From positions 1 to 49,057 of the forward strand of contig CALIKQ010000010.1 of assembly GCA_938017975.1 (NCBI GenBank): a stretch of DNA of 49,057 nucleotides, in the 5' to 3' direction. The stretch is from an uncultured Pseudomonadales bacterium. Its GTDB lineage: Bacteria; Pseudomonadota; Gammaproteobacteria; Pseudomonadales; Azotimanducaceae. The position numbers were made by a program, and so were the translations under genes. Numbering within the stretch: the first letter of the stretch is position 1; each line of letters begins with the position of its first letter. Of this stretch, positions 8,496 to 20,487 are shown piece after piece. A model generated the notes under the pieces. It saw only the letters and a list, made by a program, of their open reading frames with translations. It did not search any database and was not told the origin of the DNA.

Positions 8496-9650
8496 TTAAT
8501 CGGCTTGCCGTCGCAGGAACGCTGGGATATCCAAATACTCAAGATCTCGCCCGCCTTCGCTGCTAGGACTCGCACCATCAAGCATTGCTTTGTTGCGTAT
8601 TACCGTGGGCTTGTCCAGCTGCTGATAATCTGGCATACCGTCACCAGCGAGTCGCCTGCGCAGCGCCGCGGGAAGTTCCGTCTTTGGATCCAAATCAAGC
8701 CCTAGGCCAGTGGCAACAACCGTCACGCGCATTTCCTCACCCATTTCAGGATCAATGACCGTACCGATCACAACCGTCGCATTATCTGATGCAAATTCCT
8801 CAATCGTCGCCCCGACCTGAGAAAACTCGGTCAATGTGATGTCGACGCCGGCGGCTATATTAACCAAAATACCCCGAGCTCCAGAAAAATCGATATCTTC
8901 GAGCAGAGGACTGCGTACAGCTGCTTCGGCCGCATCTAGAGCCCGATGCTCACCCGAGGCGGCGCCGGTTCCCATCATTGCCATGCCCATCTCAGACATC
9001 ACGGTTCGAACATCGGCGAAGTCCACGTTGATCATTCCTGGACGGATAATCAAGTCAGCAATTCCTTGCACGGCGCCCAAAAGCACATCATCAACCGCCC
9101 CAAAAGCTTCTAACAGTGGGGTATCTTGCCCCATAATCGATAAAAGCTTCTCGTTCGGTACCGTGATTAACGAATCAACATATTCGGATAACTCAGCAAT
9201 ACCCGCTTCCGCAATTTGCATGCGCTTGCGCCCCTCAAAAGGAAACGGCTTGGTTACAACAGCGACAGTCAGAATGCCCAAATCTCGCGCAATCTGCGCG
9301 ACAATCGGAGCAGCACCTGTCCCAGTGCCGCCTCCCATCCCAGCGGTGATAAAGACCATATCGGCGCCTTCGAGAACTTCCTCGATGCGCTCTTTATCTT
9401 CTAAAGCGGCACTTTTACCCATGGTTGGATTCGCGCCAGCACCCAATCCCTTGGTGATGTCGGAACCTAGCTGCAATAACGTTCGCGCGGTTAATCTCTG
9501 CAATGCTTGAGCATCAGTGTTGGCGCAGACGAAATCGACACCCTCAATCTGATGATCGACCATGTGCTGCACGGCATTACCCCCACCGCCACCCACACCG
9601 ATGACTTTTATGACCGCGTGTTGCGGCTGGTTATCAACTAATTCGAACAT
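8496..9650 (-). CDS. ftsZ: Cell division GTPase FtsZ
   Basis: Tubulin homologue that forms the Z ring. The ATG at 9650 gives 384 residues and the normal start MFELVDNQPQHAVIKVIGVGG; the frame stays open far upstream, but that part overlaps ftsA and is not FtsZ-like. The tubulin signature GGGTGTGAAP and the T7 loop NVDFADVRTVM are present. The C-terminus has the conserved peptide EYLDIPAFLRRQAD, which binds FtsA and ZipA. ftsA ends 35 bases upstream, so the genes are co-transcribed. Length and motifs are normal. Confidence 0.98.
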   Translation of the reverse strand: MFELVDNQPQHAVIKVIGVGGGGGNAVQHMVDHQIEGVDFVCANTDAQALQRLTARTLLQLGSDITKGLGAGANPTMGKSAALEDKERIEEVLEGADMVFITAGMGGGTGTGAAPIVAQIARDLGILTVAVVTKPFPFEGRKRMQIAEAGIAELSEYVDSLITVPNEKLLSIMGQDTPLLEAFGAVDDVLLGAVQGIADLIIRPGMINVDFADVRTVMSEMGMAMMGTGAASGEHRALDAAEAAVRSPLLEDIDFSGARGILVNIAAGVDITLTEFSQVGATIEEFASDNATVVIGTVIDPEMGEEMRVTVVATGLGLDLDPKTELPAALRRRLAGDGMPDYQQLDKPTVIRNKAMLDGASPSSEGGRDLEYLDIPAFLRRQAD

Positions 9651-9684: not shown

Positions 9685-10923
9685 TTAAGACTCCGTCCCC
9701 AGTAACCACTGTTTTGCTTTGGTCCAGATCGAGTCGCCCGCAACCACGGTCGCGCGCGAGTTCCCAGAACCGACACCCTGCGAAGCGCCATACTGCAATA
9801 AACCAACAGCAGTGGCGTAGATCGGGTTTCTGACAATGTCAGACAACCCGGATACATTTTTGGGTTTCCCAATGCTGACGGGCATGTGGAATATTTCCTC
9901 GGCAAGCTCGACCACCCCCTCCATCTTTGAGGTCCCACCCGTTAAAACGATGCCCGCAGCAATCAACTCTTCAAATCCGCTTCTCCGCAATTCGGTTTGA
10001 ATCAATGTGAAGAGTTCTTCATAGCGAGGCTCCACAACTTCAGCCAATGCTTGCCGCGATAAACTCCGATCCTCCCGTTCTCCCACGCTAGGGACTTTGA
10101 TCGTTTCGTTTTCTCCAGCCATTGAGGCCAGCGCACAGGCATATTTAATTTTTATTTCTTCAGCATTTTGCGTCGGGGTACGCAGCGCCATTGCGATATC
10201 GTTGGTCACTTGATCGCCAGCGATCGGAATGACCGCCGTATGTTTGATCGCGCCTTCTGTGAAAATCGCGATATCTGAGGTGCCGCCTCCGATATCAACT
10301 AAGCAGACTCCTAGGTCTTTCTCGTCATCAGTTAAGACGGAATAGCTCGATGCCAATTGTTCGAGAATGATGTCGTCGACGCCGAGCCCACATTGCTTAA
10401 TGCACTTTTCAATATTCTGAGCAGCATTGACAGCGCAGGTTACGAGGTGCACCTTCGCCTCGAGACGCACACCCGACATGCCCAGCGGCTCCTTGACGCC
10501 CTCTTGCGAGTCAATGATGAATTCCTGCGGAAGAATATGAAGAATTTTTTGGTCCGCTGGAATTGCAACCGCCTGGGCCGCGTCAATCACGCGGTCAATG
10601 TCTGGCTGAAAAACCTCTCGGTCGCGTATCGCAACGATTCCATGAGAGCCCATACTCCGGATATGATTTCCAGCGATCCCAGCATAAACAGACTGAATTT
10701 GGCATCCTGCCATCAGCTCTGCCTCTTCAATCGCTCTCTGAATGGATTGAACAGTCGAATCAATATTGACCACCACACCCTTTTTTAATCCCTTGGATGC
10801 ATGGCTACCCAACCCAATAATCTCTAATCTGCCCTCAGGGTTGATCTCTCCAACAATAGCCACCACTTTCGATGTACCAATATCTAGGCCCACTATCATT
10901 CGATTCTGGCTGTTATTGCTCAT
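9685..10923 (-). CDS. ftsA: Cell division actin-like protein FtsA
   Basis: Actin-family ATPase that tethers FtsZ to the inner membrane. It begins IVGLDIGTSKVVAIVGE (phosphate 1 motif), with LVDIGGGTSDIAIF (phosphate 2) and VLTGGTSKMEGV (adenosine motif). The last residues, SIWTKAKQWLLG, form the expected amphipathic membrane-targeting helix. It has 412 residues. Its ATG overlaps the ftsQ TGA as ATGA. No unusual feature was seen. Confidence 0.97.
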   Translation of the reverse strand: MSNNSQNRMIVGLDIGTSKVVAIVGEINPEGRLEIIGLGSHASKGLKKGVVVNIDSTVQSIQRAIEEAELMAGCQIQSVYAGIAGNHIRSMGSHGIVAIRDREVFQPDIDRVIDAAQAVAIPADQKILHILPQEFIIDSQEGVKEPLGMSGVRLEAKVHLVTCAVNAAQNIEKCIKQCGLGVDDIILEQLASSYSVLTDDEKDLGVCLVDIGGGTSDIAIFTEGAIKHTAVIPIAGDQVTNDIAMALRTPTQNAEEIKIKYACALASMAGENETIKVPSVGEREDRSLSRQALAEVVEPRYEELFTLIQTELRRSGFEELIAAGIVLTGGTSKMEGVVELAEEIFHMPVSIGKPKNVSGLSDIVRNPIYATAVGLLQYGASQGVGSGNSRATVVAGDSIWTKAKQWLLGTES

Positions 10924-11654
10924 AGCTCTTCACCTTCTATCGTATTCTCACGCAGGGTTAACAACTGATCTGTTGTAGGAATCGGTCCGTTGATTGCAAC
11001 GCCATCGGTATAGCGCGCATCGATCTTGGCGTTTTTAGCGGTAATGCCCATTTGCTCGAGACGATTAATCACAATCACGGCTCGCTTTAAACGCTGGCTG
11101 ATCTCGTCACTGCCCAACAAAACCTGCCAGCCAGCTTCGAGCTCAAAGGCCACAGCACCACGCGCTCTGACCTCGACTTCCGCAAGTGCTCGACCAGGCA
11201 TCGCCTTTCGAATCTCAAGATAGCGACGCATTACTTCGTCAATGTCATCCTCCGGACCAGATAAATGCGGCAAATCTGAGCCACTATGAAAATCAGAATG
11301 GAAAACATCGCCCTCCTGATTGATGTAGCCCGAATCATTCCAATAAGCGATCGCTAGTTCTGGCTGGACCTGAACAATCAATTCATCTGGCCAGTTGAAG
11401 GTGACTTCGGCAGCGGCAACCCAATTCAGCGACGCAATGGTTTCACGCACGCGATCAATGTCAGTTGCGGCCGCACCCAAGCTGAGCAGTTTCGAACGAA
11501 CGTCTGCACTTTGGCCCTCATTCACTTCGCCGCGAATCACCCAATACCGAACATCAGAGTCTCCAACTGAATTATCTCCAAATGTGGGATTACACAAGGC
11601 GCCGATAGCCAACAGCACGCCGTAGCAAAAACAATGGGTCAACTTTGAGGTCAC
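10920..11654 (-). CDS. ftsQ: Cell division protein FtsQ (very short cytoplasmic N-terminus)
   Basis: Bitopic divisome protein that recruits FtsB and FtsL through its periplasmic domains. The POTRA region (VRYWVIRGEVN, then SLNWVAAAEVTFNWPDELIVQV) and the beta domain (WQVLLGSDEISQRLKR, AKIDARYTDGVAI) are recognisable. I chose the GTG at 11654: it overlaps the murC TGA as GTGA and has AAGGAGA just upstream; a TTG at 11675 lies inside murC. The result is 244 residues with a cytoplasmic tail of only about 6-8 residues and one short hydrophobic stretch (CYGVLLAIGALC), where most FtsQ have a longer basic tail. ddlB, usually just upstream, is absent. Confidence 0.88.
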   Translation of the reverse strand: MTSKLTHCFCYGVLLAIGALCNPTFGDNSVGDSDVRYWVIRGEVNEGQSADVRSKLLSLGAAATDIDRVRETIASLNWVAAAEVTFNWPDELIVQVQPELAIAYWNDSGYINQEGDVFHSDFHSGSDLPHLSGPEDDIDEVMRRYLEIRKAMPGRALAEVEVRARGAVAFELEAGWQVLLGSDEISQRLKRAVIVINRLEQMGITAKNAKIDARYTDGVAINGPIPTTDQLLTLRENTIEGEEL

Positions 11655-13096
11655 GCCGCATCTCCTTGTTGCCAAAGGTCAGCCAACGAACGAGCAAGCT
11701 TTGCGGTGTCCCCTGCGCCCTGAGTCAAAATAATGTCTCCATCTTGCAACAAGGTATCTAGGGTCGCCGCCGCCTCATTCAGCTCGGGTAGCCAAATCAG
11801 CGATTCAAGCGATGTTGACTGAAGCGCTCGGTAGAGATCTTGTCCTTCAGCCCCTGCGATCACGTCCTCCCCTGCCGGATACACATTAGAAATAAGCAGA
11901 ACGTCCACCTTTGATAGCGCGACTACAAACTGTTCGAACAACGCCGCGGTCCGCGAGTACCGATGAGGTTGATAAACCATGACCAACCTGCGGTCGGGCC
12001 ATCCATCCCGAACAGCATCTATTGTGGCTAGGACTTCGGTTGGGTGATGACCGTAATCATCGATCAGCAACGTTTTACGCTCACCGACCCAGCAGTCACC
12101 AAGTACTTCAAAGCGACGACCCACACCACTAAACTTGATGAGTCCCTGACGAATGACCTCATCCTCTAGGCCCTCCTCGCTAGCCACCGCTATCGCCGCA
12201 AGCGCATTGAGTACGTTGTGCCGACCGGGCATCAATAGATCAATCAACAAATTCGATTCACGGTCAGGGCGAACGACTTCAAATTGACTGAGCTGCTCTT
12301 TTTGCTGCCAGTTTACGATTCGATAGTCCGCCTCATCGGAGAACCCATAAGTTTTCACGGGTCGCATAACCGCAGGCAGCATCGAGGCCACAACCGGATC
12401 ATCCTCGCAAGCCACTAATAATCCATAAAATGGTAGGTTATGAACGAAGGCCAAGAAGGCCTCTTGGAGCTTGGAAAAACTCCCCTCAAAATTAGAAAGG
12501 TGATCTCGGTCAACATTGGTCAATATGACTGACATCGGCTGGAGGTGTAAAAATGAGGCATCGCTTTCGTCAGCTTCAGCGATCATATACTGGCCCTGGC
12601 CCAACTGAGCATTACTTGCTGCTCGATTTAAGATACCGCCTATAATGAACGTCGGATCGAGCCCCGCTTCATAAAAAATAGAAGCCACCAAACTGGTAGT
12701 CGTTGTTTTGCCGTGGGTTCCTGCAACCGCAATTCCATGGCGATAGCGCATCAATTCCGCCAACATTTCAGCGCGACGGATAATCGGGATTCGGGTTGAA
12801 CGCGCAGCATCGACTTCAGCATTGTCTAAAGCAATAGCGCTCGATACCACCACCACATCTGCGCCTTCAACATGGTCTGCTTGATGCCCTTCAAAAACCC
12901 GAATCCCCAGACCCGATAATCTCCGGGTTGCTTCGCTGCTCTTTAAATCTGATCCCGAGATCCGATAGCCTTGATGCAATAGAACTTCCGCAATACCAGA
13001 CATTCCAGAGCCGCCAATACCAACAAAATGGACGTGCTCGATGCGCCGCATTTCCTTTCTTGCGGGCGACTGAAGTTGATTAGAAATCAAGCTCAT
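11651..13096 (-). CDS. murC: UDP-N-acetylmuramate-L-alanine ligase MurC
   Basis: Adds L-Ala to UDP-MurNAc, the first peptide step of peptidoglycan precursor synthesis. It has an N-terminal Rossmann motif (FVGIGGSGMSGIAEVL, about residues 24-39), ATP site AGTHGKTTTTSLVA (about 124-137) and the C-terminal ligase block DDYGHHPTEV. The length of 481 residues is normal. Its ATG overlaps the ftsW TGA (ATGA). In most gammaproteobacteria murG lies between ftsW and murC; there is no room for it here. Confidence 0.97.
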   Translation of the reverse strand: MSLISNQLQSPARKEMRRIEHVHFVGIGGSGMSGIAEVLLHQGYRISGSDLKSSEATRRLSGLGIRVFEGHQADHVEGADVVVVSSAIALDNAEVDAARSTRIPIIRRAEMLAELMRYRHGIAVAGTHGKTTTTSLVASIFYEAGLDPTFIIGGILNRAASNAQLGQGQYMIAEADESDASFLHLQPMSVILTNVDRDHLSNFEGSFSKLQEAFLAFVHNLPFYGLLVACEDDPVVASMLPAVMRPVKTYGFSDEADYRIVNWQQKEQLSQFEVVRPDRESNLLIDLLMPGRHNVLNALAAIAVASEEGLEDEVIRQGLIKFSGVGRRFEVLGDCWVGERKTLLIDDYGHHPTEVLATIDAVRDGWPDRRLVMVYQPHRYSRTAALFEQFVVALSKVDVLLISNVYPAGEDVIAGAEGQDLYRALQSTSLESLIWLPELNEAAATLDTLLQDGDIILTQGAGDTAKLARSLADLWQQGDAA

Positions 13097-14259
13097 ACCG
13101 CCTTTCCTTTTTTCGGCGCCGCAGGCGCATTACGGCGCTCCCAGTCAAGTCGGAGTAGCAGCCCCACGAGGAGCAAGGACACCAAAAGGCTGTTACCGCC
13201 AAAGCTCATCAGTGGCAACGTCAAGCCCTTCGTGGGGAGCAATCCGAGATTGACGCCCAGATTAATCAGTGCCTGTACGCCGATCAAAAGAGAGATACCA
13301 GCAGCAAGATGCGCGTGGAAACTAAATCCAGCTTGCGCGCAGCGCTTGGAGATCATCAAGCCTTGCACCACGAGCAGGGTGAACCCGAGTAAGACCAAAC
13401 ACGCGCCGAAAATACCTAGTTCCTCGACCATAATGGAAAAAAGAAAATCCGTATGAGCTTCCGGCAAGAAAAACAGCTTCTGTACGCTGTTACCCAGACC
13501 TAAACCAAACCACTCTCCTCGACCAATTGCGATCAACGCTTGAGTGAGCTGATACCCGCCCTCGAACTGGTGGGCCCAGGGGTCTGTGAAAGACACCAGC
13601 CTTGCTAATCGATAGGGTTGTATCAGTACCAATAAGCCCACAAGCAGCCCGCCTGCAATCACAGTAGGGCCAAAATATTTCATCGGCGTTCCCGCAAAAA
13701 ACAGCATGCCGAGCATTGCAGTCATAATAACAACGCAAGCACCAAAATCGGGTTGCGCCAATAGTAAGCCCACCAGTATCCCGATCAAGGCCAGGGGCAA
13801 AAGATAGGCACGCAACTGTTCTTTGTACCTGACCGTTGGACTGGCTAGGTAGGACGCTAAAAATACAACCGAGAACACCTTCACAAATTCAGAGCCTTGG
13901 AGCGTAAAAAAACCAAGGGGAATCCATCGCGTTGCGCCGTTGACAGTCTTTCCAAGGCCGGGAATCAGCACCACCATTAAAAGCAATAACGACACGCCGT
14001 AAAAAACGATGCCGAGACGCTGCCAGACCCGAATTGGAATCGCTAACGTGCTGATTAAGACTAAAAGCCCAAGCGCCAAGAATGCAGTGTGCTTTCCAGC
14101 CAAGAAAAGCGGATGGCCATAACTTCGAGCGGCAACTTCGGAGGAGGCCGAGGTCACCATGACAAGTCCAACCAGTAGCAAAACTGTTGCGGAGAGCAGC
14201 ACCGTAACATCGACAGGACACCGATCAATCGGGGCGACTTGAAGTCGAACCGCGCTCAT
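13093..14259 (-). CDS. ftsW: Peptidoglycan glycosyltransferase FtsW
   Basis: SEDS-family polytopic membrane protein that polymerises lipid II at the septum together with FtsI. About ten hydrophobic segments are seen in 388 residues. Family blocks include GATRWIPLGFFTLQGSEFVKV, LAQPDFGACVVI (with the conserved catalytic-region Asp), FLPEAHTDFLFSIMVEELG and LTLPLMSFGGNSLL. The ATG overlaps the murD TGA (ATGA), with GGAGG a few bases upstream. murC follows directly. Confidence 0.97.
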   Translation of the reverse strand: MSAVRLQVAPIDRCPVDVTVLLSATVLLLVGLVMVTSASSEVAARSYGHPLFLAGKHTAFLALGLLVLISTLAIPIRVWQRLGIVFYGVSLLLLMVVLIPGLGKTVNGATRWIPLGFFTLQGSEFVKVFSVVFLASYLASPTVRYKEQLRAYLLPLALIGILVGLLLAQPDFGACVVIMTAMLGMLFFAGTPMKYFGPTVIAGGLLVGLLVLIQPYRLARLVSFTDPWAHQFEGGYQLTQALIAIGRGEWFGLGLGNSVQKLFFLPEAHTDFLFSIMVEELGIFGACLVLLGFTLLVVQGLMISKRCAQAGFSFHAHLAAGISLLIGVQALINLGVNLGLLPTKGLTLPLMSFGGNSLLVSLLLVGLLLRLDWERRNAPAAPKKGKAV

Positions 14260-15578
14260 GAGGATCCTCCCTCAAGCATCGCCATAAAACGATCACCCCG
14301 TGCTTCATAACCTGAGAACTGATCAAAACTCGAGCAGGCAGGAGACAACAAAATGACGTCACCGGCATTCGCCAATGCCATCGCATGCGCTACCATTTCC
14401 TCAAATGGCAAGAAGCACCTTACATTTAGTTGGGCGTCCAAGGCTTGCCTGATTTCTTCAGCCGCCTCCCCATAGACCAAAACCGCTTTGAGGGCTTTTT
14501 GCTCCAGCAGTACAGAGTTAAGCATTGAGAAATCGGCTGATTTACCTTGCCCTCCCAAAAGTAAAATCAAAGCACCCGAGGCTTTATAACTGCGGATAGC
14601 GGCGACTGTTGCCCCAACATTGGTTGCCTTCGAATCATTGATCCAGCAACAACCATCATTGCGATCAATACGCTGGCAGCGATGCGGAAGCCCTTCAAAA
14701 GAACGCAGGTCTGCTGTCATGCGGTCCATATCAAGTCCAAGGCAGTTGCCAATAGCCAGCGCAGCTAAAGCATTGAGCCAATTGCTAAGCCCTTCAACAC
14801 CAAGCTTCCGCACGTCAAGCAACGGCTCCAAGCCTTGAGCCAAGTAAATTTGGCCGTCCTGCTCCAGGAGTCCAAAACCAGAACAAGCAGACTCGCCAAA
14901 AACAGAAACGGATGAGCAAGTGCCCGTCTGCACATAGGATCGGCAAGCTTCGCCAACAACACCTCGCTGTGCGCGATTAAAAATATTACTTTTAACCGCA
15001 TAGTAGTCCTCAGCCGACGCGTACCGATCCAAGTGATCAGGACTGAGATTTAATAAAGCACCTACTTCTAATGGGAGTGTCTGAGCCAATTCGAGGTGAT
15101 AACTCGAAAGTTCTAGCACGTAGCAATCCGCGGCCTCGTCGAGAAGGTCCAAACAGGGCGTGCCAATATTGCCGCCCACACGAACCGAAGACATCTGGCT
15201 CTGAGCCAGATGTCCCACAAGCGACGTCACCGTCGTTTTACCATTTGATCCTGTGATTCCCACCAGCGGTGCTTTTGCGCGCTCGGCAAATAACGCCACA
15301 TCGTTGGTCAGCGTCACGCCATATTTAGGCGCCTGCCGCAGTTGCGGAAGGGACAGGGGAACTCCTGGGCTGACAATCCATTGGGCACCCGGGTGCATGG
15401 GTATTTCAGAGATAGGAGCGACGCTCGGTGGGTTATGAAGTTGCGACATTTCATGGAGCGCAGCTGGTGACGGGTGATCCTCACCTACCATAAAGGGAAT
15501 ATTTTCGGCCGCCAAATGTCGAGCCACAGATCGGCCTGATTCACCCAGTCCGATCACAACCTGCGGTTGCCCAGCCAT
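14256..15578 (-). CDS. murD: UDP-N-acetylmuramoyl-L-alanine-D-glutamate ligase MurD
   Basis: Adds D-Glu to UDP-MurNAc-L-Ala. ATP site GITGSNGKTTVTSLVGHL, the central block LNLSPDHLDRY, and WINDSKATNVGAT mark MurD. I chose the ATG at 15578, which shares its first base with the murE TGA (TGATG) and gives 440 residues starting MAGQPQVVIGLGESGRSVA. A longer reading from 15605 would run into murE. In typical clusters murF and mraY stand between murE and murD; here the two genes touch. Confidence 0.96.
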   Translation of the reverse strand: MAGQPQVVIGLGESGRSVARHLAAENIPFMVGEDHPSPAALHEMSQLHNPPSVAPISEIPMHPGAQWIVSPGVPLSLPQLRQAPKYGVTLTNDVALFAERAKAPLVGITGSNGKTTVTSLVGHLAQSQMSSVRVGGNIGTPCLDLLDEAADCYVLELSSYHLELAQTLPLEVGALLNLSPDHLDRYASAEDYYAVKSNIFNRAQRGVVGEACRSYVQTGTCSSVSVFGESACSGFGLLEQDGQIYLAQGLEPLLDVRKLGVEGLSNWLNALAALAIGNCLGLDMDRMTADLRSFEGLPHRCQRIDRNDGCCWINDSKATNVGATVAAIRSYKASGALILLLGGQGKSADFSMLNSVLLEQKALKAVLVYGEAAEEIRQALDAQLNVRCFLPFEEMVAHAMALANAGDVILLSPACSSFDQFSGYEARGDRFMAMLEGGSS

Positions 15579-17035
15579 CACGACCCGATCCTCATCTCGG
15601 ACCAAGCACGCTCAATCATCGCGCAATCATTAAACGGATGACGGATTCCATTGATCTCTTGATACTGCTCATGACCCTTGCCGAGTACAACACCAACGTC
15701 TCCGGCACCGACAGCACGAACCGCAGCAAAAATCGCTTCGTAACGATTTACTAGGCAACGTTCAGCGGGCATCGCTTCAGGTAAATCAGCGCACATCGCA
15801 CGAATGATCTCGGCCGGGTCCTCAGACCTCGGATTATCACTGGTAAAAAAACAGAGATCGCTGTGAAGGGCGGCGATATGGCCCATTTCGGAGCGTTTAC
15901 CGGGATCTCTATCCCCGCCGCAACCGACGACCGTAATAAGGCGACCGCTAAAGTGCTGGCGCAAGGTCCTAAGCACCTGAGCTACGGCATCAGGGGTATG
16001 CGCGAAGTCCACCCAGAGCGTTCGATCAGCGCGAATCACACACTCCAGACGCCCCGGCGGAGGCTGACAATGGCTTAACGCCGCTCCGATATCCTTTATG
16101 CCAACGCCATACCAATGAAGTAGGCTCGCAACCGCTGCAAGATTACTCAGGTTATAGTGACCGAGCAGACAACTTTGCACCTCGACAGAACCTGCTGGCG
16201 TTTTCAGCGTAAACTGGCTTCCAGACTCATTAAATTGTGGGCGCTCAATTACGACATCGGCGCCCGGCTGAGAGACACTATAAGTAATAACCTCTGCAGC
16301 AGACGTTTCTCGCGACAGCTCAAGTGCCCAAGGGTCATCAAAATTGAGTATCGCAACCTCAAGTCCAGGCCATTCAAAAAGGCGGGCCTTCGCTTGACGG
16401 TAGGCCGATAGCGAACCGTGATAATCAAGATGATCCCGCGTCAAGTTGGTGAGCACAGCTGCACCGATTCGAGTACCCTCAAGCCGAAACTGACTGAGGC
16501 CGTGGCTTGATGCTTCTACAAACGCGACCTCTACATCCGCTTTGGCAAGATTTGACAGTGACGCTTGGAAAGTAACCGCATCAGGCGTTGTTAACCCGGT
16601 AGCCTCCAATTCGCCAATAACGCCCGCGCCAAGCGTACCAATGATGCCAGCCTGATGAGACAAATAGGACATCGCGTTGGCGGCCAAAAAGGTCACTGAT
16701 GTTTTGCCGTTCGTCCCAGTGACCGCAGCCACACGCAATTGCTCTGATGGCATGCCATAAAAAATACCGGCAATTCTTCCAAGAGAAGACTTGATTTCTG
16801 GGATAACAATGAGCGGAACTTCTGGGGCGATCGAATCTAAGGGGGTCGGAGAAACAATTGCGCAGGCACCATTGTCTAGCGCATCTTGAATAAACCATCG
16901 ACCATCAGATGTTTCGCCTGGCAATGCAACAAACAATTCTCCTGGCTGAGTCTGACGGCTGTCTAGCGAAATACCAGAGACGAGAACATCCGGCACTGTG
17001 TGATCAGGGAACAAATGAGGCAAAGCGACAGTCAC
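15578..17035 (-). CDS. murE: UDP-MurNAc-tripeptide synthetase MurE (meso-DAP type)
   Basis: Adds meso-diaminopimelate to UDP-MurNAc-L-Ala-D-Glu. ATP site AVTGTNGKTSVTFLAA, substrate-binding NLTRDHLDYHGS, and the meso-DAP selectivity motif DNPR in FFTSDNPRSEDPAEI. The last point predicts the usual DAP-type wall. The protein has 485 residues, a normal single MurE, so it is not a MurE-MurF fusion. The start is GTG at 17035, sharing one base with the ftsI TAG (TAGTG). The next gene is murD instead of murF. Confidence 0.97.
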   Translation of the reverse strand: MTVALPHLFPDHTVPDVLVSGISLDSRQTQPGELFVALPGETSDGRWFIQDALDNGACAIVSPTPLDSIAPEVPLIVIPEIKSSLGRIAGIFYGMPSEQLRVAAVTGTNGKTSVTFLAANAMSYLSHQAGIIGTLGAGVIGELEATGLTTPDAVTFQASLSNLAKADVEVAFVEASSHGLSQFRLEGTRIGAAVLTNLTRDHLDYHGSLSAYRQAKARLFEWPGLEVAILNFDDPWALELSRETSAAEVITYSVSQPGADVVIERPQFNESGSQFTLKTPAGSVEVQSCLLGHYNLSNLAAVASLLHWYGVGIKDIGAALSHCQPPPGRLECVIRADRTLWVDFAHTPDAVAQVLRTLRQHFSGRLITVVGCGGDRDPGKRSEMGHIAALHSDLCFFTSDNPRSEDPAEIIRAMCADLPEAMPAERCLVNRYEAIFAAVRAVGAGDVGVVLGKGHEQYQEINGIRHPFNDCAMIERAWSEMRIGS

Positions 17036-18687
17036 TAGACTGCCTCCCTTGTGTCTGTCGGCGGGACACTCAGCAATCTCAAAACGTTTGACATAACTCT
17101 GGAAAAAATAGGCGCAGCAATGCTGCCACCACCGACCTGTTCAGTTTGCGGCTCATTGATCAGCACCACCCCTACGTACCGGGGAGCGTACTGAGGTGCA
17201 AACCCAGCAAAAAAAGCAATATGCCGGGTGTCGTCATAGCCATTTTCCCCGATTTTTCGAGCGGTGCCCGTCTTGCCCCCGACGTCATAGGCTTCGATCG
17301 CGGCTTTACGGCCTGTACCCTCAGTGACCACACGTCCAAGCATCGACTGTAATTGAAAGGCGATGCGGGCATCCATCACCCGTTCACCCTGCACGGCTTG
17401 TCCGGCAATAAGCGTGACATCTCTTTTGATGCCTCCTGATGCGATGGTGCTATAGGCGGCAGCCAATTGCAGAGGTGTCACCGTCAAACCATAGCCGTAC
17501 GCAAAGGTCACTCGCTCGATGTCCTTCCAGCGCCTTCTGTTAGGAAGAAACCCGCTGCTCTCTCCTGGGAAACCTACCCCAGTCGCCTGACCGAATCCGA
17601 AGGTTTGAAACAGGTTCCAAACATCGTATTCATTAAGGCTGAGAGCTAGGCGACTGATTCCGACTTGACTCGATTGGGCAAGAATTCCGCCCAAATCCAG
17701 TGTGCCGCGGTCACGGGGGTCTTTAATGATGGCGCTCCCAACTTTCAAAAACCCTGGACTGGTATCAATCTCAAAATCATTAGCAAGCCCCGACTGAAGA
17801 GCCACTGCAACGGTCAGAGGCTTGACCGTTGAACCTGGCTCAAACACATCGGTCACGGCACGATTACGCACCGAGCTCAAATCAAGTTGGATGCGGTTAT
17901 TGGGGTTGTAACTCGGCTGATTAGCCATGGCCAAGACTTCACCTGTCGCGACATCTAGCAGCACAAACGAACCCGACAACGCACGGTACTGCTGAACTGC
18001 TGATTTCAGCTCTCGATAAGCCAAAAACTGCAACCGTTGGTCGATCGATATTTTTAGGTCGCGGCCGGGAACAGCTTCCGCAATCGGCATAATATCCCGG
18101 ACGATCTCGCCATAGAGGTTTTTGAGTACTTTCTTTTTGCCTGGCTGTCCCTTCAACCAATCATCAAAAGATAGCTCCAATCCTTCCTGACCAACATCGT
18201 CAATATTGGTGAATCCGACCACATGGGCTGTGACCTCTCCTCCTGGGTAGAATCGGTGATATTCTTTTTCGCCGTAAATGCCGGTAATTCCCAAGCTTAG
18301 AATCGCGTCGGCAGCTTGAGGTTTTGCATGCCGCCTTAGGTAAACAAAATTGCGATCTTCAGCACGCGCCATTTTGCGCTTAAATTCTTCAAGGGACACA
18401 CCTAGACCAGTGGCGAGTTCGCTGAGTCTTTGTGAATCAACAGGCAACTGGGCAGGGTTTGCCCATAGAGATACAACCGGCGAACTAACCGCCAGAGGGT
18501 TATCCCTGCGATCAAGAATCATTCCTCGATGCGCGTTGATTCGCTCCATTCGAATGGTTCGAGCATCGCCTTGGTCTTGCAAGAAATCCTTTTCAGACAT
18601 CTCGATATAGACCAATCTCGCCGCGCCTGCGCCCATCAATAAAACAAAGCAAAGCGCCGCGACATGCAGTCTAAAAATTACATTCAT
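17035..18687 (-). CDS. ftsI: Septal transpeptidase FtsI (PBP3), with SSQ as second motif
   Basis: Class B penicillin-binding protein that cross-links septal peptidoglycan with FtsW. It has a short N-terminal anchor (about residues 8-28), a pedestal domain starting NAHRGMILDRRDNPLAV, and the transpeptidase domain. Active-site motif 1 is S286-T-V-K289 and motif 3 is K472-T-G474. Motif 2, normally SxN, reads S339-S-Q341 (codon CAA at 17667-17665 on the minus strand). It has 550 residues. The ATG overlaps the ftsL TGA (ATGA). Confidence 0.96.
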   Translation of the reverse strand: MNVIFRLHVAALCFVLLMGAGAARLVYIEMSEKDFLQDQGDARTIRMERINAHRGMILDRRDNPLAVSSPVVSLWANPAQLPVDSQRLSELATGLGVSLEEFKRKMARAEDRNFVYLRRHAKPQAADAILSLGITGIYGEKEYHRFYPGGEVTAHVVGFTNIDDVGQEGLELSFDDWLKGQPGKKKVLKNLYGEIVRDIMPIAEAVPGRDLKISIDQRLQFLAYRELKSAVQQYRALSGSFVLLDVATGEVLAMANQPSYNPNNRIQLDLSSVRNRAVTDVFEPGSTVKPLTVAVALQSGLANDFEIDTSPGFLKVGSAIIKDPRDRGTLDLGGILAQSSQVGISRLALSLNEYDVWNLFQTFGFGQATGVGFPGESSGFLPNRRRWKDIERVTFAYGYGLTVTPLQLAAAYSTIASGGIKRDVTLIAGQAVQGERVMDARIAFQLQSMLGRVVTEGTGRKAAIEAYDVGGKTGTARKIGENGYDDTRHIAFFAGFAPQYAPRYVGVVLINEPQTEQVGGGSIAAPIFSRVMSNVLRLLSVPPTDTREAV

Positions 18688-19040
18688 TCCTGGAGCCCCT
18701 CAGCAGCAGCTGTCGAGACCATTCGCGCCGAACGCCGCATCAGGACAAAATTGGCCTGCCCGGGAGAGCGCATCTGCAGCTCTTCACGCGCCAATTGATC
18801 GACTCTGTGATAGCCAGCCCAAGCGCTTTGCTCGAGCAACAAACGCTCATACTCGCTGTCGAGGTTGTCGCTAACATGCTCCTCGACTTGTAATCGACTA
18901 TAGAGGGCACGTGTTTCGTAGGAAGCCAAAATCACGCCCACACTCGAGGCCAGCACGAGGCACAGCAGCGCATTTGTGCGACCAGGCCAGCCCGATGAGG
19001 ACCACCTGATCAATTGTCTGACTAAGCTAGCGGAATTCAT
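18684..19040 (-). CDS. ftsL: Cell division protein FtsL
   Basis: Small bitopic divisome protein that forms a coiled coil with FtsB and activates FtsWI. It has 118 residues with a short cytoplasmic part, one membrane segment (ALLCLVLASSVGVILASY, about residues 24-41) and a periplasmic helix with the family pattern (LYSRLQVEEH...LDSEYERLLLEQSAW...VDQLAREELQMRSP). Sequence identity in this family is low; the call rests on shape, end motif and position between rsmH and ftsI. Both ends overlap the neighbours by ATGA. Confidence 0.93.
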   Translation of the reverse strand: MNSASLVRQLIRWSSSGWPGRTNALLCLVLASSVGVILASYETRALYSRLQVEEHVSDNLDSEYERLLLEQSAWAGYHRVDQLAREELQMRSPGQANFVLMRRSARMVSTAAAEGLQE

Positions 19041-19954
19041 GCGATTTTTTCCATGGCACGCATAACGGCGCTGCGAGCTCGAGGATTTGAGTCCACCTCT
19101 TCAGCATCAGCGCGCCATTTACCCAACGAACGTGCTGGACGACGGATCTGATCATCTAAAATCGGGAGTTTCGATGGATAGGGGTCGTCACGTTCTTGTT
19201 GCTTCACAAAGCGTTTCACCCGGCGATCTTCAAGTGAGTGAAAACTGATAACGACCAACCGACCCAAAATTTTCAGAAGTTCAGGGACCGCCGCAAGGCA
19301 CTGGTCTAGATCGTCGAGCTCACGGTTAACCTGAATTCTAATGGCCTGGAACGTGCGAGTGGCTGGATGTTTGTAATGATCCCGAGTCGGTGCAATCCGA
19401 GCAATCAAGTCGGCGAGCGCTTGGGTTGTCTCTAACGGCGCCTCTTTCCTTGCCGCCACAAGCGCGCGGGCGATTCGCTTGGCGTAGCGCTCTTCGCCAT
19501 ATTCTTTGAGCACCTTTGAAATTTCCGACTCTGCTGCCACCTTCAGCCACTCAGCCGCCGACTGACCCTGGCTATTATCCATCCGCATGTCCAAAGGCCC
19601 AGAACGCATAAAACTAAAACCCCGCTCTGCCGTATCCAGCTGATTTGAGGAAACGCCAAGGTCCAGAAAAACGCCGTCGACCTGCCCAACACCGATCCCA
19701 AGGAGATGCTGGTCAATCGCAGCAAAAGATCCATGCACCACAGTCACCCTGGACTCAGTCTCAAACCGCATCCGCGCACAATTGATTGCTTCGGGATCTT
19801 TGTCCATCACTATCAACCGCCCATTTACAGAGAGCCTTTCTAAAATCGCTGCAGCGTGACCACCGCGGCCAAACGTACAATCGATGTAAATACCATCCGA
19901 TCGATGAACAAGCACATCGACCGCTTTCTCGAGCATCACCGGAATGTGGGTCAT
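19037..19954 (-). CDS. rsmH: 16S rRNA m4C1402 methyltransferase RsmH
   Basis: SAM-dependent enzyme (MraW) that methylates N4 of C1402 in 16S rRNA. Begins THIPVMLEKAVDVL, then DCTFGRGGHAAAIL (SAM site), FLDLGVSSNQLD and FSFMRSGPLDMRMD, all family hallmarks, and near the end VISFHSLEDRRVKRF. It has 305 residues. The ATG is 11 bases after the mraZ stop. The next gene, ftsL, starts inside the stop codon. Confidence 0.98.
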   Translation of the reverse strand: MTHIPVMLEKAVDVLVHRSDGIYIDCTFGRGGHAAAILERLSVNGRLIVMDKDPEAINCARMRFETESRVTVVHGSFAAIDQHLLGIGVGQVDGVFLDLGVSSNQLDTAERGFSFMRSGPLDMRMDNSQGQSAAEWLKVAAESEISKVLKEYGEERYAKRIARALVAARKEAPLETTQALADLIARIAPTRDHYKHPATRTFQAIRIQVNRELDDLDQCLAAVPELLKILGRLVVISFHSLEDRRVKRFVKQQERDDPYPSKLPILDDQIRRPARSLGKWRADAEEVDSNPRARSAVMRAMEKIA

Positions 19955-19965
19955 CTGGTGCCGCC

Positions 19966-20418
19966 CTACAGAGATAATGACTGCAATTCTTCAGGCACAC
20001 CGTCTTCAGACTGCACTTCCAACCACTGATCCCGACGCGCCGTCCACGTCGACTCATCCCAAAGCTCTAGTTTATTACCTTGCCCCAACAGCACCGTTTG
20101 TTTGCCCAGCATTGCGTACTCCCGCAAGGGCGGCGTAATCAGTATTCGGCCGTTGCGATCCATGGGAATATCAGTCGCATGGCCAATCAGTAGGCGCTGA
20201 ACCCTTCTCGCCGCCGAATTAAAACTAGGTAGGGATTCGACTTTACGCTGTATGTCTTCCCAGGCGGTCTGAGGATAAATGAGCAGGCATCGCTCCTCTG
20301 TATCTATGGTCACAACCATCGAGCCTCGACACGTTTCGAGAATCTCATCGCGATAACGCGTTGGGACGGTGAGCCGCCCTTTTGCGTCCATATTGACTTG
20401 ATTGACACCTCTAAACAC
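19966..20418 (-). CDS. mraZ: Transcriptional regulator MraZ
   Basis: AbrB-like ring-forming DNA-binding protein that represses its own cluster. It carries two repeats of the MraZ domain, with DAKGRLTVPTRYRDEI in the first and DRNGRILITPPLREYA in the second. I chose GTG at 20418 over GTG at 20424: it gives the family's MFRG start (150 residues) and puts the AGGGA ribosome site about 9 bases away instead of 3. The upstream region holds a promoter and three MraZ-type boxes. Confidence 0.96.
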   Translation of the reverse strand: MFRGVNQVNMDAKGRLTVPTRYRDEILETCRGSMVVTIDTEERCLLIYPQTAWEDIQRKVESLPSFNSAARRVQRLLIGHATDIPMDRNGRILITPPLREYAMLGKQTVLLGQGNKLELWDESTWTARRDQWLEVQSEDGVPEELQSLSL

Positions 20419-20487
20419 AGTCACAGTTCCCTAAGATCCATACAATCCGAACAAAATGGACGTTTGCTTTTATCTAAACGCACTATG

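Follow-up and report, generated by a model that had tools for sequence, protein, structure and literature searches.

The closest described counterpart of the protein at the centre of this study is standard MraY (family model TIGR00445, with structures from E. coli and Aquifex), for which an HHH motif (PXHHHXEXXG) is described as MraY-specific and linked to the UDP-muropeptide substrate (PMC5039524). Two mraY genes (mraY1 and mraY2), both kept and both dispensable, are reported in Planctopirus limnophila (PMC10632474), and xenologous displacement, in which a foreign homologue replaces the native gene, is on record, e.g. for ribosomal protein S14 (PMC9425974). We analysed a 49,057-nucleotide stretch of DNA (the window; contig CALIKQ010000010.1) of an uncultured bacterium of the Azotimanducaceae, order Pseudomonadales, whose division and cell wall (dcw) cluster lacks murF, mraY, murG and ddlB. 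Core enzymes that interact with many partners are generally regarded as hard to replace; in this marine gammaproteobacterial family the lipid I and lipid II steps are probably carried by unlinked foreign homologues, with MurF and Ddl also encoded outside the dcw cluster. Compared with known xenologous displacement, two consecutive steps of one essential pathway would be concerned, and for one of them the swap would have happened repeatedly in a single family. The shared name implies no kinship between the Planctopirus gene and the protein that we call MraY2; here both genes were never found in one genome. No earlier description of these replacements was found in the open-licence literature, which is weak evidence of novelty.

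The gap in the dcw cluster

The window (contig C10 of a 3.19 Mb assembly of 79 contigs, 96.5% complete) carries on its minus strand the order mraZ-rsmH-ftsL-ftsI-murE-murD-ftsW-murC-ftsQ-ftsA-ftsZ, as read from open reading frames (ORFs) and NCBIfam models, with rsmH assigned by its ORF and by BLAST against relatives. The order of these genes is that of the canonical gammaproteobacterial cluster (taken as in E. coli), and the interleaved murF/mraY, murG and ddlB are lacking: neither ORFs nor NCBIfam models placed murF, mraY, murG or ddl anywhere between mraZ and ftsZ. At the usual site of murF and mraY (15578..15605) the stop of murE and the start of murD share the letters TGATG, with no mraY remnant; at that of murG, ftsW and murC overlap by 4 nt (13093..13096); and at that of ddlB, murC and ftsQ abut (11651..11675). 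A sequence-only reading of this DNA had claimed that the dcw order is kept and the four genes are gone, and the ORFs, the NCBIfam matches and the tight junctions bear this out.

Outside the family, mraY, murF and murG stood in a single run on one contig in 13 of 13 genomes of the same order, with ddl included in 12. We annotated 49 further family dcw loci by best BLAST hit, leaving out of the count G408 (no dcw on the locus) and G362 (poorly resolved). None of the 49, and none of 50 when the window is counted, contained murF, murG or ddl. Downstream of murE, mraY was present in 29 of the 49 (in G377 murD is unassigned) and murE adjoined murD without mraY in 18 (fused in G347), the junction lying off the contig in the other two (G334 and G350); 29 against 18 is no frequency, as many of the 29 loci were fetched for having mraY. 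The mraY-less loci gave no remnant of standard mraY at E<=0.01, their murE-murD junctions yielding only matches at E>=0.03. Since all 13 order genomes outside the family hold the run and the window junctions are tight, the four-gene gap is genuine and, among the genomes sampled, confined to the family. The functionally coherent loss proposed earlier does not fit a single event, murF, murG and ddl being out of the cluster family-wide and mraY in only part of the family, apparently on several occasions.

Two junctions deserve mention in their own right. In G347 (contig C11, 5889-8633) murE and murD form one 914-aa frame, of which the N-terminal half is 43% identical to MurE and the C-terminal half 40% to MurD, and the 295-nt murE-murD gap of G393 reads by eye as remaining murE in another frame.

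The genes of the window cluster are, in order of transcription and all on the minus strand, mraZ (19966..20424; TIGR00242, 149.8 bits, above cut-off), rsmH or mraW (19037..19954; an ORF of 305 aa, with the same gene at this place in relatives), ftsL (18684..19040; TIGR02209, 54.3 bits, above cut-off), ftsI, encoding PBP3 (17035..18687; top NCBIfam match PRK15105 FtsI at 505.6 bits, below the model cut-off of 737), murE (15578..17035; TIGR01085, 449.9 bits, above cut-off) and murD (14256..15605, the true start probably lying near 15582; TIGR01087, 355.5 bits, above cut-off). These are followed by ftsW (13093..14259; TIGR02614, 384.5 bits, above cut-off), murC (11651..13096; TIGR01082, 552.6 bits, above cut-off), ftsQ (10920..11675; NF008043 FtsQ, 76.6 bits, E 1.7e-21, under the model cut-off) and ftsA (9685..10923; TIGR01174, 530 bits, above cut-off). 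The cluster runs on, past the span 9685..20418 first delimited for it, to ftsZ, to which we assign the interval 8496..9650 with an inferred start (the listed ORF begins at 9938; TIGR00065, 427.7 bits, above cut-off, matching from ORF residue 103).

Candidates for the four functions and their descent

A candidate for each of the four functions was found elsewhere in the genome. The single MraY-type match, MraY2 (C9:2945-3994), scores 115.6-115.9 bits against TIGR00445, under the curated cut-off of 192.05, and the MurG candidate (C48:44831-45907), the only TIGR01133 match at E<=1e-3, scores 236.1 bits, under the curated cut-off of 250.25. The sole candidates for MurF (C9:18158-19507; TIGR01143, 307.9 bits, cut-off 288.6) and Ddl (C4:11970-12917; TIGR01205, 293.9 bits, cut-off 245.65) are both above cut-off. 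In the Ddl candidate a YDYE.RY stretch aligns with YDYEAKY of E. coli DdlB, a type of stretch that we take to mark D-Ala-D-Ala (as against D-Lac) ligases. That FtsW and FtsI still need lipid II and that the genes should lie elsewhere had been argued from the window; with candidates for all four functions encoded in the genome, lipid II can therefore still be made. They are spread over three contigs (C9, C48 and C4), with MraY2 and MurF 15 kb apart on C9 and many unrelated genes between them, and the genome search revealed no second operon, which rules out relocation as one operon, the case favoured by the sequence-only reading.

Across 25 family genomes, MurG was found in 23, among which G013 alone (253.7 bits) passes the TIGR01133 cut-off, a MurF match of at least 212 bits in 20 (none in G003, G004, G006, G008 and G019) and a Ddl above cut-off in 24 (the exception being G009). 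In G019 (20 contigs, 98% complete) and G003 the family search returned no MurF-sized match, which may reflect a divergent MurF or an assembly gap. Between G000 and G007, members of one genus, identity is 48% for MurF, 60% for MurG and 82% for MraY2, the last thus being slow-evolving in the genus; FtsA and FtsZ of G000 and G003 are 92% identical.

MraY2 differs from standard MraY in being only 25-26% identical to four MraYs of the same order, in having two shorter loops and in sitting outside the dcw cluster. In residue numbers of Aquifex MraY, transferred by motif from the published descriptions (PMC6606608, PMC5039524), the equivalents of the catalytic aspartates D117, D118 and D265 and of N190, D193, D196, H324 and H326 are kept in 22 of 22 MraY2 sequences. 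In the same 22, K70 is deleted, H325 is replaced by D, L195 by V and F262 by L or M, and T75 is changed in 21. Instead of HHH, MraY2 reads HDH (22/22; PLHDH in 18/18). A structure model of an 87%-identical MraY2 relative shows the fold of MraY (mean pLDDT 74.6, weak over residues 282-311). With its score under the TIGR00445 cut-off and its HHH motif lost, MraY2 is, on sequence grounds, outside the MraY equivalog definition. It most likely works like MraY, as a predicted lipid I synthase, because the genome holds no other match to the MraY family at E<=1e-3.

The closest relatives of MraY2 outside the family (37-41% identity) are two MraY-like proteins of gut Clostridia (MT836336 and MT839863), filed as phage and surrounded by ordinary bacterial genes, the clostridial label being a reading of those neighbouring genes. 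They share with MraY2 the HD pair, the V195 and L262 equivalents and the K70 deletion, and differ in a shorter middle loop; one of them reads HDF. MraY2 groups with these proteins in the tree. Joining it to gammaproteobacterial MraY in one group is rejected (p=6.4e-7), far more strongly when five outside standard MraYs are used instead of one (this second test used 5 of the 13 gammaproteobacterial rows in the first MraY tree).

The family MurG groups with non-dcw MurGs of Bacillota (from plasmid records of S. aureus, Anoxybacillus and Cytobacillus) and with the MurG of Legionella adelaidensis, which form one supported group with it at 41-45% identity in differing gene neighbourhoods, and with those of Aureispira and gut contigs. 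Records of the plasmid collection and of the gut match it at this same 41-45%, and no other genome among 397 Pseudomonadota gave a match to it at E<=1e-40. Union with gammaproteobacterial MurG is rejected both in the first tree, with 19 family MurGs from the 23 genomes having one (p=3.8e-5), and with three added outside rows (p=5.7e-4; 4 family and 5 gammaproteobacterial rows of the first tree omitted). MraY2 and MurG thus seem to be foreign and not relocated originals. For MurF, the best matches come from outside its own class, in other classes of its phylum (230 bits, versus at most 186 in its own), and the Ddl tree without the Anoxybacillus row does not separate foreign from native; both proteins may be either foreign or relocated native ones. 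Simple relocation, considered earlier for all four genes, therefore falls for MraY2 and MurG, for which gammaproteobacterial descent is rejected, and may still hold for MurF and Ddl.

Two neighbourhoods of family-type MurG were read individually. In L. adelaidensis (NZ_LR134431, 7992-13345) the gene lies upstream of genes annotated as mreC, mreD and a rod shape-determining protein; the record is called a plasmid yet is full of housekeeping genes. An M20 peptidase stands beside MurG both in Legionella and here; as a sign of a common source this was dismissed, the two M20 proteins showing no significant similarity. On the Anoxybacillus amylolyticus plasmid NZ_CP015440 (752-8752), murF and genes for a VanG-like D-Ala ligase, a glycosyltransferase, a DedA protein, a deacetylase and a family-type MurG lie near a circular bacteriocin gene.

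MraY and MraY2 across the family

A profile search with MraY2 in 120 family genomes found MraY2 in 41 and a standard-type MraY in 70, with both in none and neither in 9. The two kinds are separated by score (325-707 bits for MraY2 versus 58-109 bits for the standard type); G324 was counted as MraY2 on a C-terminal fragment scoring 106 bits. Among the 70, only genomes with an annotated dcw locus had their mraY seen in place, the others being assigned by score (G335, at 58 bits, is unsure). A tree built from a concatenation of eight dcw proteins (51 rows, 49 with a state), made with a quick method and a plain model and accompanied by letter make-up warnings, requires 5 state changes, and its starred branches make at least 4 of them necessary. 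The genus of the window belongs to a clade of 15 genomes without mraY, and G326, G393, the pair G350 and G381, and G323 stand separately among mraY keepers (the state of G350 rests on the profile search, its junction being off the contig).

The location of MraY2 also varies. It lies downstream of hemF, ybdL or yafV in 38 of 42 named loci, the remaining four being three that start at MraY2 (L114, L151 and L153) and one that differs (L136); in six scattered genomes it occupies five other neighbourhoods, as judged by eye. Close relatives are 67-89% identical to the MraY2 of the window's genome, the scattered copy of G408 53%, and include contigs titled OM182 clade, OM182 bacterium, K189A clade, Pseudomonadales bacterium or Gammaproteobacteria bacterium. 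MraY2 was detected in none of 397 other Pseudomonadota genomes at E<=1e-40 and in 3 of 293 genomes of the order at E<=1e-45, each of which belongs to the window's family. The same distant type seems to have taken the place of mraY on several separate occasions.

Ten of the 42 named loci (L117, L126, L129, L130, L132, L134, L136, L137, L140 and L148) have, immediately upstream of MraY2 and in the same orientation, a gene of 268-295 aa. Viral carriage of MraY2 was considered and set aside: viral contigs, scanned twice, yielded candidate stretches and no relative, and the two matches in the phage collection sit among ordinary bacterial genes.

Weighing the explanations, and what the exchange may mean

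An enzyme-for-enzyme replacement with unchanged chemistry is the most likely explanation. MraY2 would make lipid I from UDP-MurNAc-pentapeptide and the foreign MurG would turn that lipid I into lipid II, with native MurC, MurD and MurE acting before them and FtsW and FtsI after them. Each swap would have started with the gain of the foreign gene at another place, passed through a brief phase with two genes and ended with the scarless loss of the dcw copy. For any one event taken singly, the plain alternative is chance gain followed by loss of the redundant gene, which leaves unexplained that the same type entered several times.

An assembly or binning artefact, raised before as something that could undo the observation, is scarcely credible: all 42 named relatives are metagenome-assembled genomes, but the same cluster form occurs in 18 other assemblies with a visible murE-murD junction, and the coupled genes of the window leave tight junctions. 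A simple rearrangement, in which all four originals were relocated and then diverged fast, would fit the presence of all four candidates, mostly unlinked, the fast evolution of MurF and MurG between G000 and G007 and the failure to reject native descent for MurF and Ddl. It is very improbable, being rejected for MurG (with one borderline variant, given below) and MraY2, and kin within the same family keep a standard mraY in the dcw cluster; because MraY2 evolves slowly within the genus, fast divergence does not account for its distance from MraY. Hardly better is the prospect that MraY2 uses another nucleotide-linked muropeptide, so that lipid I itself differs. The change from HHH to HDH, the K70 deletion and the L or M at the F262 equivalent speak for it, and the loss of HHH leaves a small opening, but MurC, MurD, MurE, MurF and Ddl are all present, the Ddl stretch aligns with that of DdlB, FtsW is above its family cut-off and FtsI is recognised. 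Of the changed precursor route entertained in the sequence-only reading, the part that stands is that two enzymes have changed; of changed chemistry there is no sign, Ddl being D-Ala-D-Ala-like and the catalytic residues of MraY2 being kept.

More serious, though still doubtful, is a double set in the family ancestor, with lineages losing either MraY or MraY2. It would produce the patchy distribution without repeated transfer, and the MraY2 tree partly resembles the dcw tree. On the other hand, none of the 111 genomes with a match retains both genes, and MraY2 stands in at least six different neighbourhoods. With a MraY2 from a shared ancestor, the scattered copies would be expected as a single clade against the main one, and they do not form one (p=0.0093, with gut sequences as root and a long-branch warning).

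Several observations weigh against replacement by foreign enzymes. MraY2 reads HDH in place of the MraY motif, and its activity is a prediction from sequence. The MurG test becomes borderline (p=0.049) when the dcw MurG of Listeria is placed with the gammaproteobacterial ones, and Legionella, which has this type of MurG, is a gammaproteobacterium too, so that the type is not strictly exclusive to other groups. No donor was identified, other phyla having been sampled solely via plasmid and phage collections. A foreign origin of MurF and Ddl could not be upheld: native descent is not rejected for MurF (p=0.068; p=0.42 when the Anoxybacillus row is placed with the gammaproteobacterial ones) or for Ddl (p=0.27), for which an earlier p=0.0015 arose with two own-class rows outside the group. 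G408 has MraY2 while its congeners keep mraY, and its dcw cluster was not found. Conversely, G003, G014, G016, G339, G365 and G406 have a dcw cluster without mraY, yet MraY2 was not found in them; the contig ends and some inner stretches of G003, read for MraY2 neighbours, showed none.

As a guess at why the replacement by MraY2 recurred, MraY2, and perhaps the foreign MurG, may have spread by withstanding an antibiotic or lysis protein directed at MraY in the sea. In Aquifex MraY, K70, T75, F262 and H325 are described as contacting nucleoside inhibitors (PMC6606608). These residues are absent or changed in 22, 21, 22 and 22 of the 22 MraY2s, with the catalytic ones kept; the recurrence of MraY2, its mutual exclusivity with MraY and the bacteriocin gene near murF, the VanG-like ligase and the MurG of the family's type on the Bacillota plasmid would also fit. 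Against this, the gut-clostridial relatives have the same residue changes, which therefore mark a lineage and not selection here, and the case is built from sequence. Escape from phiX174 E was discarded: the equivalent of E. coli F288 is F in 22/22 MraY2 and I or L in 9/9 native family MraY, the wrong direction. Tentatively, MraY2 could be an essential lipid I synthase whose nucleotide site has been rebuilt and which, being insensitive to inhibitors and transferable, displaces the native, susceptible MraY each time it moves between lineages. If this were true, swapping the essential target itself would be a defence in marine bacteria.

A practical caution is that cut-off-based annotation would call MraY missing in these genomes. 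For the family, the findings suggest that lipid I and lipid II synthesis, two consecutive steps, are performed by foreign enzymes, and they offer a natural experiment in which sister genomes have a related divisome and different lipid I synthases. Such genomes could show how far MraY and MurG rely on particular partners, and whether the changed nucleotide site affects inhibitor binding.

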